DNA from: Pyrodictiaceae archaeon
GTDB lineage: Archaea > Thermoproteota > Thermoprotei_A > Sulfolobales > Pyrodictiaceae
Reading direction: 5' to 3'
DNA: 64,000 bases
NCBI GenBank assembly: GCA_027036135.1
Contig: JALVSY010000007.1
Location: 66,880-130,879, forward strand
Shown here piece after piece: positions 15,290-53,237 of this stretch (positions within the stretch are counted from its first letter, which is position 1; each line of letters starts with the position of its first letter). The position numbers and the translations under genes are program-made. The notes under the pieces are model-generated. The model was not told where the DNA came from, made no database searches, and saw only the letters and a program-made list of their open reading frames with translations.

Positions 15290-15496
15290 GCCCTTATCCC
15301 CACAGTATTAGCTACGGGCGGGGAATAGTTAACCACTGCTTCGTGGACACTGATGCCGCCTCGTTGAGACACGGCCCGGGGTCTCCTAAGTGGCGGGCTA
15401 AAGGCTTTTTGCAACAATTTCTTAACCAAATATGTTATTAATTCGGCGTCTTTCTCATCTTATCATAGTAAAGAATCGTTGGAGGGCTGGCCAAGC
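15290..15496. promoter_or_regulatory. Divergent promoter region
   Basis: Separates AOR from the next plus-strand gene. The plus strand has an AT-rich block (aaccaaatatgttattaattc, about 15424-15444) suitable as a promoter; GGAGGG at 15481 sets the ATG at 15497. Nothing else noted. Confidence 0.35.
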
Positions 15497-16088
15497 ATGG
15501 CCGGGAAGGAGCCAGGGTTCATGAAGGGTGCTAGCTGGGTAAAAGTGTATCATGCCTACTTCCAGTCAATGGTCGTGGAGGGGCTCACGCAGCTAGCCTA
15601 TGACGCGATGGGCCCCGATACGGGGGTTCGCGGCGGTTGCCCGGATAATCGAGAAAGGCGCAATGAAGGGCTTCGGCGCATTGCTCGAGGAGGCCAAGAA
15701 GGCTGGCATAGAGCTACAGGGTATCGGGCTCCGGGAGCTACTAGAGTACGAGGTGGCTTGCCACCGCAAAGCCATAGAGGAGATGGGTGTTGATTTCCAG
15801 CTCTTCGAGAAAGTAGTCCCATTAGAGAATGGCGAGGGATACGCACTAGAGACTAGGCACTGCAAGTACCACGAGCTAGCTAAGAAGAACCCTACGGTCT
15901 GCGGTGTCTGCGTAGGCATAGTGACGGGTATACTGAAGTGCTTCGGGATACGCGCCCAGTGGGTCTCCCATCCACGCAGGAAGAATCAGCTATGCCTCCG
16001 CGAAGAGAAGCCAGAATACGTTGTCTACAAGGACCCCGATGTCGAGCCCCCCAAGTGTAGGATAGTGGTTGAGAAGCTCAAGTGCTAG
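15497..16088 (+). pseudogene. Cys-rich conserved protein interrupted by one frameshift
   Basis: Two overlapping frames join into one protein of about 196 aa. The 5' part (SWVKVYHAYFQSMVVEG, QLAYDAMGPDTG) runs into a run of five G at 15622-15626; removing one G restores GFAAVARIIEKGAMKGFGAL and the remainder. The C-terminal half has six cysteines, including RHCKYHELAKKNPTVCGVC and CFGIRAQWVSHPRRKNQLC, then PDVEPPKCRIVVEKLKC. The His/Cys spacing suggests metal or heme binding and recalls the aminothiazoline-carboxylate hydrolase-like family, but I cannot assign it firmly. It may be a true frameshift or a homopolymer sequencing error. Confidence 0.65.
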
Positions 16089-32498: not shown

Positions 32499-32944
32499 GT
32501 GCCGAGTACTAATTGATACTAGTTTTCTTCTTCCCGCTCTTGGCGTGGAAGTTGAGAAAAGTGTTATGTCAGCAATACCTCTATTCGGGAGACTAAGAGT
32601 CTATTATCTTGAAGCTGGTCTATTGGAGGCTCTCTGGAAGGTTTTTGAAAATTGTTCCGGAGAACAAGCTGGGCCTTGTAGAGACGGGTATTAGGGCTAT
32701 CCGAGCGACTTATCAAGTACTGGCTCCTCCGCCGAGGGCTTTTGTCAAGGCAATAAGACTTTATCGTAATGGGCATAGGGATTATATAGATGACTTGTAT
32801 TACGCGACGGCTTTGTTTACAGAGACGTCGTTTCTCACAATAGATTATAGCTTCATGGAGTTTCTTCGAGGCCGCGGATACCCGGTAGAAGGAGTCGTGA
32901 TTACTCCGATGCTCCGAGACTATATTAAAAGTTGCAGGGGCTAA
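32485..32944 (+). pseudogene. PIN-domain VapC toxin with frameshift
   Basis: The first frame reads RVLIDTSFLLPALGVEV and IPLFGRLRVYYLEAGLLEAL. At the five-T run 32642-32646 an extra base shifts it; dropping one T restores ALWKVLKIVPENKLGLVETG and the other frame, YIDDLYYATALFTETSFLTID with the third acidic patch, to a stop at 32942. Only half of the PIN fold is made in each frame. Both members of this TA pair are frameshifted, so the locus is probably inactive. Confidence 0.75.
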
Positions 32945-32955
32945 AAGAAAAGGGC

Positions 32956-33966
32956 TTAGTCTTCGTAGCCGTATTGTTTTCTTAGCTTCTTTGCTGCCTC
33001 GGCTATTGAGCGTAGTTTCTGCCTCGCTATCTCCCTGGGTAGTCTTTTGAGCCCGCAGTCTGGGTCTAGGTAGATTTTCTCCGGGCCTAGTATGTCTAGC
33101 TTCATGAGGCGCTCCACGGCCTCTATTATCTCGTCCACGGTCTCTACTCTTAGGCTGTGTACATCGACTACGCCATAGCCTAGTTCCTTGTTGAAGCCAT
33201 ACTCCTTGAGGTAGGGTAGTAGCTTGAAATCGGAGTTCTTGAACTCTAGGTCTATCTGGTCTACGGGGAACTCTAGTATGTAGGGTATGAGTTTCTCTAT
33301 TCTCCCGAAGCATATGTGTACAATCTTCTTGGCATCTATGCCCTTCAGCATCACGTCTAGGGCCTCTTTCACCAGCTCTGCCTCCCCTCTACGAGGCCTC
33401 GCGGGGAGGGCTGGCTCGTCTACCTGTACGTAGCGGGCTCCTCGCTTCACGAACTCCTCGATCTCTCTGCGGAGCACCCTTGCGAACTCGAGTACTAGTT
33501 CCCGGCGATCACCGTAATGGGTGTCGAAGCTCCAGTCAGCCATCGTGTAGGGCCCAGTTAGTATCGCCTTGACGGGCCTGCCCTGGGAGACGCTCTGAGC
33601 GTACTCCCAGTCCATAACAGCCATCGGGGCAACGTACTCTACCCTCTCGTGTACAACTGGTTTACGGAAGTAGACGTTATCGAATATCCTTACCCAGTCA
33701 CCTATCCTGTACCCCTTAAGCCTCTCAGCGAAGTAGACGACCATGTCCTCTCTGCTCTGCTCCCCGTCACTCAGTATATCGACGCCAGCCCACAGGTAGT
33801 CCTCGATAACCTTCTTTATAGCTGGCTTGACTCTCTCGTGGAACTCCTCCTCGCTTATAACACCCTTGCGCCTCAGCTTGATAGCCTCCTGGGCCTCCGG
33901 CATCTTAGGGTAACTACCAACAACCGTGACGGGAAAGGCCCTCGGGACACGATACTCCTGGGCCAA
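32956..33966 (-). CDS. metE: Cobalamin-independent methionine synthase core (MetE-type)
   Basis: Archaeal single-domain MetE-type methionine synthase, 336 aa. [18 protein letters not shown] and the zinc ligands His217 and Cys219 in IVHICFG, with Cys304 in [12 protein letters not shown], are present, and Glu241 in QIDLEFKNS fits the fourth ligand. It transfers a methyl group to homocysteine; the donor in archaea of this type is uncertain and may be a corrinoid or pterin carrier. TTG start after GAGGAG. Confidence 0.88.
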
Positions 33967-35440: not shown

Positions 35441-35977
35441 TTAGGGAGGGACTAGGACGAGGGCTATAGAGGACGGGTAGAGTGGTATCTTTTTTGTGAC
35501 TTGTTCTCCGTCGGCGTAGCTTAGCCTGACAGTGATGTAGCCTAGGTGGTAGAGCTTGACCGTTATGTTTGCACCAGGGCAACTAGCTTCTAGGCGGTGA
35601 TAGCTCTTATCAAGGGTTCTTAGTGGCACTATTACTCCGTTTCTCTCATTGAATGGTGGTGAGTAGGGGCTTGTCCCCGTGAATTGGGCGTAGAGCCTGG
35701 CCTCGGCCCGGTTCTCGCCCTTTAGGGTTATTGTTAGGTTGCAGGGCTTATCCGCTACTATGGCTGCGTAGAGTGGGGTGATACGGGGAACATTCAGAGA
35801 TATCTTGTTGGAGGCGCTCCTGGATTCTACCTTCTCTATCTTTATTGCTTGGAGGATACGGGAATCGTATTCTTGGTTGACGCGTATTATTGCGGTGACC
35901 TTGTGGGGCTTGGAGTAGAGCCTTACTAGTGCTGTTAGCGTGCCCCTCGTGGATGAGGTGCTATAGGGCCCGGACAT
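35441..35977 (-). CDS. Extracellular protein, probably the C-terminal part of the neighbouring gene
   Basis: A 178-aa beta-rich protein with two N-glycosylation-type sites (NLTI, NITV) and a hydrophobic C-terminus (SSIALVLVPP), but no signal peptide or membrane segment. It overlaps the membrane-anchored reading frame upstream by 43 bases, and PGPIA in one frame and SGPYS in the other meet at a GGGCCC. One base insertion there would fuse them. I take it as the second half of one secreted protein, split by a frameshift or genuinely separate. Confidence 0.5.
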   Translation of the reverse strand: MSGPYSTSSTRGTLTALVRLYSKPHKVTAIIRVNQEYDSRILQAIKIEKVESRSASNKISLNVPRITPLYAAIVADKPCNLTITLKGENRAEARLYAQFTGTSPYSPPFNERNGVIVPLRTLDKSYHRLEASCPGANITVKLYHLGYITVRLSYADGEQVTKKIPLYPSSIALVLVPP

Positions 35978-36306
35978 AGAGACAAATAGTTTACTTTATG
36001 GGCCTTCTCTCCTCTGAGCCCTATATGGGCCAATACGTGCCCATCGTAGATAATATCCATGCCTACTAGCCCAACGCCTGGATTAGCGCTCATAGAGCCT
36101 ACGCAGGTCACGGCTGTGAAGTTGACTTGTAGCCCCGGAGGCCCTGGAAGTACGCTGCAGTACTCGGAGAAGCTCTTCCCGGAATAAGTGTTGCTGGGCC
36201 TACTTAGCAGTTGGAGAGCTATGAGGGTTGCTGAGAGAATAGCGACGACGAGGACTATTGCTACTGCTTTGGCTGTGTCGGAGTCTCGCGGCAACACAGA
36301 AGGCAC
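35935..36306 (-). CDS. Membrane-anchored extracellular protein (N-terminal part)
   Basis: A 123-aa protein with one membrane segment at about 13-34 (AKAVAIVLVVAILSATLIAL) followed by an extracytoplasmic domain with two cysteines and a third near its end. The C-terminus (HPRGAR) is out of character and likely reflects a frame change. Pilin-like or surface protein by topology only. Confidence 0.5.
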   Translation of the reverse strand: MPSVLPRDSDTAKAVAIVLVVAILSATLIALQLLSRPSNTYSGKSFSEYCSVLPGPPGLQVNFTAVTCVGSMSANPGVGLVGMDIIYDGHVLAHIGLRGEKAHKVNYLSLCPGPIAPHPRGAR

Positions 36307-48457: not shown

Positions 48458-48862
48458 TTGAGGACAGGGGTAATAATAGCGCTCATAGTTGTTGGCGCGT
48501 TGCTGCTACTCGCCGCCCGTGTCTTGGAGCAGCCGTTGCTCGGGATGGGTGCTGCGCTTCTCCTAGTGGCTGTTTTCGGCGAGCTAGCCGTGTATGGCGT
48601 GGAGGGCCTCTCGGCCCGCGTAGGGCTAAGCGGCTATGCGTCGAGCGTTGTTGTTAACACTATAGCTGTGCTACCTGAGCTCTTCTCTGCGCTCGCTCTC
48701 GGGCTACGGGCGCTTGGTGCTGGGAACCAGTGGCTCGCGGAGATAGCTTTGCTCTCGGTGCTGGTTAGTGCCTCCTTTAACTTCGTCGTGCTGGGCTTGG
48801 TAGGCCTAATAGCGAGGGGTGTTGGTGTAGCGGAGGAGACGTTGCACCTAGAGCTCCCTTGA
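48458..48862 (+). CDS. Cation exchanger (CaCA family), N-terminal part
   Basis: A 134-aa membrane protein with the alpha-1 repeat of the Na/Ca exchanger superfamily: GYASSVVVNTIAVLPELFSALALG (family N-x-x-x-PE) and SASFNFVVLGLV. Four membrane segments. Its TGA overlaps the next frame's ATG (TGATG). The other halves are the next two entries, together near the usual family length. Confidence 0.65.
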   Translation: MRTGVIIALIVVGALLLLAARVLEQPLLGMGAALLLVAVFGELAVYGVEGLSARVGLSGYASSVVVNTIAVLPELFSALALGLRALGAGNQWLAEIALLSVLVSASFNFVVLGLVGLIARGVGVAEETLHLELP

Positions 48863-49125
48863 TGAGGGTCACTGTTGCCTCGGTGGCCCTTCTCTCAGCC
48901 TACGCGGTCATAGAGGCTGGTCTCGGCTCCATCCATGGCTCTATTAGGGCCCCGGTAGCGCTTCTCGTCGCGCAGCTAGTCTTCTGGGCCTACTACGTAG
49001 CAATGGCTGTTAGGAGCGGGCTAGGCGGGGAGAGACGCGAGGCTCCGCGTGGCTGGCTAGTCCTCTTAGTAACGGGTATACTTGGTTATGGTCTTCTCCG
49101 CGGAGATGTTGGCGGGGAGCATTGA
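48862..49125 (+). CDS. Cation exchanger, middle part in a second frame
   Basis: An 87-aa hydrophobic protein (VTVASVALLSAYAVIEAGL, PVALLVAQLVFWAYYVAMAV, RGWLVLLVTGILGYGLL), with two or three membrane segments and no alpha-repeat. It overlaps the previous frame by one ATG and the following frame by about 40 bases. Read as the linker between the alpha-repeats of one exchanger. Confidence 0.6.
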   Translation: MRVTVASVALLSAYAVIEAGLGSIHGSIRAPVALLVAQLVFWAYYVAMAVRSGLGGERREAPRGWLVLLVTGILGYGLLRGDVGGEH

Positions 49126-49495
49126 GGAGATGATACACAGCCTCCACATAGAGCACATAGGTGAAGCAGCGCTAGCCGTGGGGGTAGCGAGTAGTGCGCC
49201 CGAGGCAGTACTAGCACTACTAGCCACGAGGAAGGGAAAGGCACAAGAGGCTACCGGGGGCTTGCTGGCGGCTTCCTCCACGTCTCTTCTCCTCATCTAC
49301 CCCCTGGTCTATATGCCGCTAGCCAAGGCCTTGCCAATGGACGCGTTCACGACCTACACGCTCGCGATGCTCGCAGCGATACTCTGGGTCACGAAGAGGA
49401 GCCTAGCACACGAGAATATGCTAGACACCGGCGAGGCTCTATACATACTCGTACTAGCCTCCACCGCGATGGCAACGCTAGCAGCAGTGAAATAG
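49088..49495 (+). CDS. Cation exchanger (CaCA family), C-terminal part
   Basis: A protein of about 135 aa with the alpha-2 repeat: GEAALAVGVASSAPEAVLALL (G-x-G...SxPE) and SSTSLLLIYPLVY. Returns to the reading frame of the first part, so the three frames show a -1 then a +1 change. ATG at 49088 or the later ATG-containing start at 49106. Either three coupled genes or one split gene. Confidence 0.65.
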   Translation: MVFSAEMLAGSIEEMIHSLHIEHIGEAALAVGVASSAPEAVLALLATRKGKAQEATGGLLAASSTSLLLIYPLVYMPLAKALPMDAFTTYTLAMLAAILWVTKRSLAHENMLDTGEALYILVLASTAMATLAAVK

Positions 49496-50929: not shown

Positions 50930-51355
50930 GTGAAAGGAGCCACGACGATATCTCTCCGAGATGCAATAGCTTATTTGCTCTGGCGGCACGGGTGCCTCCA
51001 TGCGTACCGGATTAGCAGGATACTAGTGCTCGCTAACTGGAGGGCCGAGGAGAAGCTAGGCAAACCAATAACACGGTTCAGCGTCGAGGGCTTTGAGGCA
51101 GGCTTCGTTATACCCGAGATAGGCGAGATAAAGGAGAAGGTCAAGAAAGGGGAGGAGAAATGCATAGTGCCAAACGAGGAGAAGAAGTGCTTCGAGTACA
51201 CCTGCAACGAGCCGGTCAACATACCCCCGGAGTACGCCGAGATAATAGACCAGGTAGCAGAGGAGACGAAGAACCTGGACGATGTCTCCCTTAACCGCCT
51301 TGTTATCCGTGATCCGCGCTACAGGGAGCTCCTCGGAAAAGGTGGGTTCCGGTGA
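50930..51355 (+). CDS. Panacea (DUF4065)-like protein before the MinD-ferredoxin genes
   Basis: A protein of about 141 aa with a GTG start. SLRDAIAYLLWRHGCLHAY and RISRILVLANWRAEEKLGK, then VEGFEAGFVIPEI, resemble the Panacea/DUF4065 fold; the assignment is tentative. Cysteines at KGEEKCIVPNEEKKCFEYTC are unusual for that fold. It overlaps the next gene by four bases (GTGA) and must be co-translated with the first MinD-ferredoxin ATPase. Confidence 0.6.
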   Translation: MKGATTISLRDAIAYLLWRHGCLHAYRISRILVLANWRAEEKLGKPITRFSVEGFEAGFVIPEIGEIKEKVKKGEEKCIVPNEEKKCFEYTCNEPVNIPPEYAEIIDQVAEETKNLDDVSLNRLVIRDPRYRELLGKGGFR

Positions 51356-52239
51356 GAGTAAAGCTCGCCGTCACCGGGGGTAAGGGTGGTACTGGTAAGA
51401 GCACAGTAGCCACTAACCTCGCTGCTCTCCTGGCCCGTGAGAGGAGACTAGTATTAGCGGATCTCGACGTAGAGGCCCCTAATGACCATATCCTGCTCGG
51501 GGTGGGCCTCGAGAACGAGGAGCCTGTGAAGATAATGCTGCCATTCATAGACTACAAGAAGTGCACTAGGTGCGGCGTTTGCGCAGAGGTCTGTGACACG
51601 GGGGCAATAGTGCTTACCCGGGACAAGACGCCTTACGTTGTGCCGCGTCTCTGTAGCGGGTGCCGTGCCTGCTACTTCGCGTGCCCAGAGAAAGCGATAA
51701 TCGAGGGACAGCGCGTAATAGGCTACACCTATCACACAAATGTCCGGCTCAAGACGAGTAGCTTCGACCTAGTAACCGGGGTTCTGAGGGAGGGCGAAGA
51801 GCACACCCCGCCAGTGGTCTTAGCGGCTAGGCGCCGAGCAATGAAGCTAGCCAATGACGTTCTACTCGTTGATACGAGCGCTGGCACTGCTAGCCATGTA
51901 GCGATAGCGCTTGAGGGCTCCAAGCTAGCAGTAGCTGTTACGGAGCCCACGCCGCTAGGGCTCCACGACCTAGAGATGATTCTGAAAATACTGAGCGAGC
52001 AGGGAATAGAGGCATGGGTCGTAGTTAATCGCTGGGGGATAGGCTCCTCAGGGAGAATGATGGACCGGCTAGCCGAGACCGCTAGGAACTACGGCGCCGT
52101 CATCAAGGCACGTATACCCTACTCCAGGGACATCGTGGACTCCTACGTCAAGGGAGTACCCATAGTTGAGATGCTCCCTGATCACGAGGTCTCGAAGGTC
52201 TTCTACTCACTAGCCAAGGAGATACTCGAGACGATCTAG
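51352..52239 (+). CDS. MinD-type P-loop ATPase with inserted 2x[4Fe-4S] ferredoxin domain
   Basis: A 295-aa protein, COG1149 type. Deviant Walker A GGKGGTGKST at 9-18; switch DLDVEAPNDH; ferredoxin insert with Cys71/74/77/81 and Cys101/104/107/111. GTG start, coupled to the upstream gene. These ATPases are thought to insert or carry Fe-S or metal cofactors; here it is linked to a second copy and a NifX-like protein. Confidence 0.9.
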   Translation: MRVKLAVTGGKGGTGKSTVATNLAALLARERRLVLADLDVEAPNDHILLGVGLENEEPVKIMLPFIDYKKCTRCGVCAEVCDTGAIVLTRDKTPYVVPRLCSGCRACYFACPEKAIIEGQRVIGYTYHTNVRLKTSSFDLVTGVLREGEEHTPPVVLAARRRAMKLANDVLLVDTSAGTASHVAIALEGSKLAVAVTEPTPLGLHDLEMILKILSEQGIEAWVVVNRWGIGSSGRMMDRLAETARNYGAVIKARIPYSRDIVDSYVKGVPIVEMLPDHEVSKVFYSLAKEILETI

Positions 52240-52259
52240 GCAAGCGGGGTGAGCGGGGA

Positions 52260-53237
52260 ATGCCCCTCGAGATAGCGGTTGCGAGCGGGAAGGGGGGAGT
52301 TGGCAAGAGCACGGTCTCCTCCACGCTAGCGCTCTACCTCAAGGAGAGAGGCTATAACATCATAGCTGTTGACGCTGACGCTGATGCCCCTAATCTCCAC
52401 CTAGTACTCGAGGTTAAGTCGTGGGAGCAGGAGGAGGGGTTTAGCGATGCCTGGGTATCAGAGATAGACTACTCGCGGTGCACTAACTGCGGTGTATGCG
52501 CAGAGGTATGCCCCTACGAGGCAGTAAGCTTCACGAATGGCAAGTACGTGATTAACCCGGTTATATGTGAGGGCTGCCTAACATGTGCACTAGTCTGCCC
52601 CGAGAAGGCTATCCGGAGAAAGCGCGTAGAGAGGGGAGTGATAAGGCTCGCTAAGACCCGGTACGGGTTCCCGCTCTGGACAGCCGAGCTAATGCCCGGT
52701 AGACCCAATACTGGCAAGCTGGTAACCGAGATAAAGAACCGCGCAAAGGCAATGGCGGGGAAGGACACAGTAATAGTTGTTGACTCCGCTGCTGGGATAG
52801 GGTGCCAGGTAATATCCTCCCTAGCAGGAGCTAATGCAGCGATACTGGTGGCTGAGCCCACGCCTGCTAGCCTAAGCGACCTGAAAAGGGTACACACTAT
52901 TGCTAAGCAGTTCCTCCTACCCTCAGCCCTCGTAATAAACAAGTACGACATAAACCCAGAGTATGTTGACAAGATACTGGAGTACGCCAAGGAGGAGAAC
53001 ATCGACGTAATAGGCATGATACCCTACGACGACCACGTACCGAGAGCAGCGGCGGAGATGAAGCCCCTGGTAAAGCTCTACCCCGACTCCCCGGCAGCCA
53101 AGGCATTACTAGAGATAGCGAGAAGAATAGAAGAGACCATAGTGAGGAACTGGAGAGACTGGGCCCGCAAACACATGCCGAGAAAACCAGTACACTACAC
53201 ACCAATAGTTATCAAGCCCAAGGAGCTAGGCAGTTAA
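52260..53237 (+). CDS. Second MinD-ferredoxin P-loop ATPase
   Basis: A 325-aa paralogue of the previous gene. Walker A SGKGGVGKST at 9-18; DADADAPNLHL; ferredoxin insert Cys74/77/80/84 and Cys103/106/109/113; C-terminal extension basic and aromatic (RNWRDWARKHMPRKP). ATG start. Two adjacent paralogues suggest a heterodimer, as proposed for some paired COG1149 ATPases. Confidence 0.9.
   Translation: MPLEIAVASGKGGVGKSTVSSTLALYLKERGYNIIAVDADADAPNLHLVLEVKSWEQEEGFSDAWVSEIDYSRCTNCGVCAEVCPYEAVSFTNGKYVINPVICEGCLTCALVCPEKAIRRKRVERGVIRLAKTRYGFPLWTAELMPGRPNTGKLVTEIKNRAKAMAGKDTVIVVDSAAGIGCQVISSLAGANAAILVAEPTPASLSDLKRVHTIAKQFLLPSALVINKYDINPEYVDKILEYAKEENIDVIGMIPYDDHVPRAAAEMKPLVKLYPDSPAAKALLEIARRIEETIVRNWRDWARKHMPRKPVHYTPIVIKPKELGS

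Follow-up and report, generated by a model that had tools for sequence, protein, structure and literature searches.

The window, the whole stretch of 64,000 nucleotides that was analyzed, corresponds to bases 66880–130879 of a 1.24 Mb contig from a Pyrodictiaceae archaeon, the genome of which (2.2 Mb) is assembled in 40 contigs and is 99.6% complete. At window positions 48458–49495, three overlapping open reading frames (ORFs) follow one another in the order of frames 2, 1, 2 and carry the parts of a predicted cation exchanger. An earlier note on this DNA had described three overlapping frames that return to the starting frame, and the ORFs are as it described them. The reading runs in frame 2 up to the TGA at 48860, continues in frame 1 to ~49086 and then returns to frame 2, where it ends at the stop at 49493. 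The three pieces are listed here with their protein identities to G002, a relative from the same genus.

48458..48862, + strand: piece 1, an ORF of 134 aa with a TTG start and the first PE motif region (AVLPELFSA), ending in the TGA at 48860–48862; 85% identity
48859..49125, + strand: piece 2, the linker, an ORF of 88 aa if read from the TTG at 48859 and of 87 aa with the ATG at 48862 as its start, with homology to the relatives stopping at ~49086; 94% identity
49082..49495, + strand: piece 3, an ORF of 137 aa that includes SSAPEAVLA, the region of the second PE motif, and has a Pfam Na_Ca_ex match barely above the cut-off; 96% identity

Pieces 1 and 3 lie in a common frame and the middle piece in a different one. 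Between 48860 and 49070, frame 2 contains ten stops, with no further one until the end at 49493, and frame 1 is stop-free from 48778 to 49123; the ten frame 2 stops indicate that the linker truly belongs to frame 1. At junction 2, the second of the two sites at which the reading changes frame, pieces 2 and 3 overlap by 44 bases, and piece 2 ends in a tail of 12 out-of-frame residues. Inspection by eye revealed no ribosome-binding site 5′ of piece 3.

Piece 3 alone scores 25.5 bits against PF01699 (Na_Ca_ex), for which the curated cut-off is 24.9, and the intact proteins of relatives score 44.0 (G004, also of the same genus) and 39.7 bits. Pieces 1 and 2 taken singly had no Pfam match at E 0.01. 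For the exchanger, the NCBIfam matches were all far below cut-off, and neither sequence nor profile searches (E up to 1) returned a PDB chain. The gene at 48458–49495 is the sole Na_Ca_ex match in its genome (E 0.001). Two motifs, P73 E74 and P248 E249, are invariant in the six aligned family proteins and occur in the window as well, the first in piece 1 and the second in piece 3; we take them to be the acidic residues of the CaCA alpha repeats, which agrees with the alpha-1 and alpha-2 labels that the note had placed on the two outer pieces. As recorded, the gene in the window spreads over three frames and does not hold both repeats in one open frame. A structure model of the intact G004 protein, built with six input sequences, reached a pLDDT of 72.3 in the best of five models (42.5–58.5 in the others). 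Foldseek matched this model to 25 PDB entries at E ≤ 0.001, with query TM-scores of 0.54 to 0.72, all of them exchangers of the CaCA superfamily by title, and VCX1, NCX_Mj, CAX, YfkE and NCLX are among the structures that it resembles. The folds of VCX1, CAX, YfkE and the Methanocaldococcus jannaschii NCX are like that of the G004 model, but their sequences are distant, and two indels interrupt the copy in the window. On the structural matches of the G004 model and the retention of both PE motifs, the gene is a distant CaCA-type exchanger, with a predicted function in cation transport.

The intact gene in relatives and the two indels

Among the 20 genomes of the family that were searched, nine carry the exchanger gene, the genome of the window included. 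Comparison with relatives, a check that the earlier note had proposed, revealed a single open frame in seven of the eight other carriers (G002, G003, G004, G007, G011, G014 and G017), and a conserved split gene was rejected on this count. None of the eight has a frame break at either window junction, and none has separate genes with the window's borders. Within the genus, the intact protein has 369 aa in G002 and 345 aa in G004; that of G003 has 276 aa, as the gene starts at a contig end that cuts it inside the first repeat region. The G002 and G004 proteins each align across all three pieces, in order, with identities over pieces 1, 2 and 3 of 85, 94 and 96% for G002 and 73, 61 and 78% for G004, an agreement that lies far beyond chance. 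At the DNA level, G002 and the window are 88% identical over the exchanger stretch. The eighth carrier, the draft genome G016, has one break at a site different from those of the window: its copy (L174, G016:C88:4245-5226) is broken where a run of four C, kept in G011 and G014 from the same genus as G016, has gained a single C.

The exchanger gene had no match in G001 and ten further genomes of the 20 searched, many of which are incomplete; of the six near-complete genomes, one (G005) is without a match. A single related locus was found in the named genome collection, in a Pyrodictiaceae archaeon MAG (L031, JALVKZ010000131.1), with 93% identity over piece 1. The plasmid records searched had no match to the exchanger. 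Searches by family, DNA and protein (E up to 10) detected no second copy in the window's own genome, all matches being the window gene itself, and a decayed duplicate of a second, intact copy was rejected on this basis.

Alignment of the DNA to the same-genus relatives showed that one base is lost between position 48855 and the adjoining C run and one is gained at 49086, ~230 bases apart. The changes at and near the two junctions are as follows.

48855..48858, + strand: junction 1, net loss of one base by DNA alignment; CCC (48856–48858) in place of four C in G002 and G004 and of A+CCC in G003
49086..49087, + strand: junction 2, net gain of one base by DNA alignment; TT in place of the single C of the three relatives
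49106..49109, + strand: four adjacent substitutions relative to G002, 20 bases past junction 2, by which Ala-Leu codons become ATG TTG (Met-Leu)

Both indels are absent from all three same-genus relatives that carry the gene. Junction 1 is a run-length change relative to G002 and G004, and at junction 2 the insertion is accompanied by a substitution. The intervals in which the shifts had been estimated to lie, 48858–48865 and 49070–49095, are close to the indels located here. The note had suggested a pair of compensating indels: the indels themselves, −1 and +1 relative to the three relatives, are present, but their compensation is not functional, since the ten frame 2 stops between them mean that they cancel only arithmetically. 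In the patch at 49106–49109, the window base is found in none of the three aligned relatives at three of the four positions, and a conserved Ala is replaced by Met; the patch could stem from genuine mutation or from a consensus of low quality.

Outside the indels, the gene shows no decay. Relative to G002, and counted in the intact frame, substitutions lie at third codon positions in 19 of 29 cases for the first part, 20 of 25 for the second and 40 of 49 for the third, with dN of 0.025–0.031 and dS of 0.20–0.54. Changes were polarized by G003 and G004, with G004 as the only reference over the part that G003 lacks, which left 56 further differences unpolarizable; the ratio of non-synonymous to synonymous changes was 6:19 on the window lineage and 10:13 on the G002 lineage, and selection thus does not look relaxed on the window lineage. 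The low dN, the third-position bias and the polarized counts together indicate that the indels struck a gene that had been under normal constraint until now. Such constraint fits an error, a recent mutation and the continued use of three pieces alike and does not separate them. A deeply decayed pseudogene was rejected on the substitution pattern.

Possible subunit coupling or recoding, and the hairpin at junction 1

Two arrangements have been put forward in which the recorded sequence would still yield a full-length exchanger, namely three coupled subunits, or two programmed shifts, with a −1 shift at a hairpin-stimulated TGA and a +1 shift before the second repeat. Taken together these are unlikely, and the locus most likely does not represent a novel type of gene, whether split or recoded.

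In the first arrangement, three translationally coupled subunits would assemble into one exchanger. The TTGATG at junction 1 and the overlap at junction 2 would permit coupling, selection has been kept in the frame of each piece, and membrane transporters can sometimes be reassembled from fragments. However, three such genes with the same borders occur in none of the eight other carriers, the break in G016 being single and elsewhere. In addition, the TTG ATG that follows junction 1 encodes the in-frame Leu-Met of the intact gene, shared by the three aligned relatives, so that the TGATG, which could suggest coupling, is a by-product of the shift. The out-of-frame tail of piece 2 and the lack of a visible ribosome-binding site before piece 3 also argue against coupling, and we consider the three-subunit proposal of the earlier note highly improbable.

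In the second arrangement, programmed recoding would combine a −1 shift before the TGA with a +1 shift at ~49086. In its favour, purifying selection acts on all three pieces, each in its own frame, and a hairpin lies just past the TGA.

48861..48894, + strand: hairpin of 13 pairs by folding, with an unbroken 11-pair stem (48864–48874 / 48881–48891) just past the TGA and two outer pairs, the 5′ side overlapping the TGA

As a 45-nt fold, the hairpin has an energy of −19.7 kcal/mol, with 0 of 200 shuffles as good (z −3.24), the 45-nt length having been picked after the hairpin was seen. It is stronger than the same stretch in G002 (−12.5), G003 (−9.4) and G004 (−9.7), and two of its pairs are strengthened by bases at 48870 and 48882 that are seen only in the window. 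Nevertheless, G002 folds into a less stable hairpin at the corresponding position, yet its frame is unbroken; the folds of G003 and G004 do not form it. An 81-nt fold is unremarkable, with 17 of 200 shuffles as good (z −1.32), the hairpin ranks 18th among 994 45-nt positions of the gene, and folds as strong occur at 47 of the 3434 positions sampled across 43.7–54 kb. Inspection of the zero frame by eye, GAG CTC CCT TGA, revealed no slippery heptamer at junction 1, the CTC CCT before the TGA departing from the form X-XXY-YYZ given for such sites (PMC8211752). At junction 2 there is neither a stop nor a run at the shift point, and no recoding signal was recognized. The hairpin alone hints at recoding, and only weakly.

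Documented −1 frameshifting in the Sulfolobus fucosidase gene fucA (PMC8211752; see also PMC8037382) concerns, as here, a frame break in a conserved archaeal gene that is intact in relatives; however, the account of fucA describes a slippery heptamer and a break common to two strains, neither of which was seen for the exchanger. The authors of a study of the Pyrococcus furiosus chitinase leave programmed frameshifting open for their own case (PMC3575233). For the exchanger, recoding makes a heavy demand, namely two different shifts that are shared by none of the eight other carriers in the family, and we regard this option of the earlier note as quite improbable. Should the double break prove real and be expressed, an archaeal transporter gene would carry two programmed shifts of opposite direction, apparently the first case. 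We know of no earlier one, our literature search not having been aimed solely at this point; searches on split exchangers and on Pyrodictium with frameshift returned nothing on point as judged by title.

Frame breaks elsewhere in the assembly and the origin of the indels

Frame breaks were audited over 104 kb (the window together with L136 and L137, with L138 left out) against the ORFs of same-genus relatives. This replaced an earlier audit of the flanks against an assumed syntenic 60 kb of G004, which had given 12 and 16 homologue pairs. In the direction from the relatives to the window's own genome, 91 pairs were obtained, 10 of them multi-frame, which correspond to 58 distinct places (48,908 bases), 7 of them multi-frame. 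The opposite direction gave 86 pairs, of which 2 were multi-frame. Single-base breaks were confirmed by DNA alignment at 5 of the 58 places and comprise six indels, or ~1 per 8 kb. The multi-frame places outside these five are L136 18589-18952, a candidate break, and 32566–32941, located on the opposite strand of a gene that is intact in the window, where the shift is in G002. Besides the exchanger, the breaks confirmed by DNA alignment are the following.

15479..16088, + strand: gene of 202 aa in G002, split near 15620, where a run of G has one G too many
35441..36306, − strand: gene in one frame in G002 (237 aa), split by a lost base near 35970
L136:13904-14343 and L137:8198-8477: two short genes, each with one single-base frame break relative to its relatives

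Of the six confirmed indels, two are plain run-length changes, namely the one at junction 1 and that in the run of G near 15620. A distant 284-aa ORF of G004 (23–29% identity) also covers both pieces of the gene at 35441–36306. By eye, the two short genes are presumably PIN-domain toxin-antitoxin-like genes. PIN-domain toxin-antitoxin genes decay in nature. The copy at L137:8198-8477 also loses similarity toward its end. A rough Poisson estimate gives 0.1–0.2 genes with two indels expected among the 58; two indels in one gene at the observed rate are not very surprising, and about half of such pairs would restore the starting frame.

The exchanger is probably an ordinary one-chain CaCA gene in which both indels are sequencing or assembly errors. 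Several observations are consistent with this: both indels are missing from every same-genus carrier, junction 1 is a run-length change relative to G002 and G004, the gene is free of decay apart from the indels, and other confirmed breaks occur in the same assembly. In a second draft, G016, this gene also has a run of C lengthened by one base, at a different site. The hairpin beside the C run at junction 1 may make a spot that is prone to sequencing error. A study of the Trycycler assembler gives ~1 error per 5 kb for the best long-read-only assemblies, with >80% of errors in homopolymers (PMC8442456). Resequencing of Mycobacterium smegmatis traced only 28 of 73 interrupted genes to errors, and a corrected protein was more like its orthologue (PMC1852416). 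Those errors were verified by resequencing and amount to 4 per megabase (PMC1852416), far below the rate needed here; the present breaks, found by sequence comparison, are far commoner. Further points that weigh against errors are that four of the six indels are something other than a plain run-length change, that the substitution at junction 2 and the patch at 49106–49109 resemble a real mutation or a mixed consensus more than a base-calling slip, and that two of the five broken places are in the PIN-like genes, for which natural decay is known.

Alternatively, both indels may be real and very recent, and the exchanger a fresh pseudogene in this strain, a less likely explanation but the strongest of the rivals. 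It would accommodate the multi-base change at junction 2. The completeness of 99.6% and the 1.24 Mb contig indicate that this is not a poor draft overall, and an assembly that is otherwise good also fits real mutations. The gene can, moreover, be lacking in the family (in one of six near-complete genomes, and in 11 of 20 overall, many of these incomplete). A real one-base split is described for the chitinase of P. furiosus, PF1233/PF1234, where deletion of the one inserted base led to growth on chitin (PMC3575233). Like the exchanger, PF1233/PF1234 is an archaeal gene that is split by a single base relative to an intact relative and has kept high identity; it differs in that its one indel is real and was tested by genetics (PMC3575233), while the two indels of the exchanger are unverified. 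A fresh pseudogene, however, has to be reconciled with a window lineage free of relaxed selection, and it requires a second indel ~230 bases from the first in a gene with little other damage. This second indel would gain nothing, given the ten frame 2 stops that lie between.

The indels are thus most likely errors and not recent real mutations. With both indels as errors, the locus would hold an ordinary exchanger gene of a Pyrodictiaceae-like hyperthermophilic archaeon, encoding one chain, the record of which would have been cut in three by a base lost beside a C run and a base gained ~230 bases later; the organism would most likely make one intact protein of ~345 residues. The entry would then serve only as a warning: annotation would make as many as three proteins out of one exchanger, and other genes of the same assembly would merit a similar check.

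Three further loci were noted. The gene at 32567–33313 (− strand) is intact in the window, and its counterpart in G002 (L128 716-1462) lies in frames 2, 3, 2, the same out-and-back pattern as that of the exchanger; one contig of G002 has ~3.9-fold coverage. A Na_Ca_ex match in another genome from this order (L028, G026:C1:684064-684489) contains one internal TAG. Finally, 51352–53237 holds two adjacent related ORFs that are ~35% identical to each other's G002 counterparts and that each contain, by eye, ferredoxin-like cysteine motifs and a P-loop.
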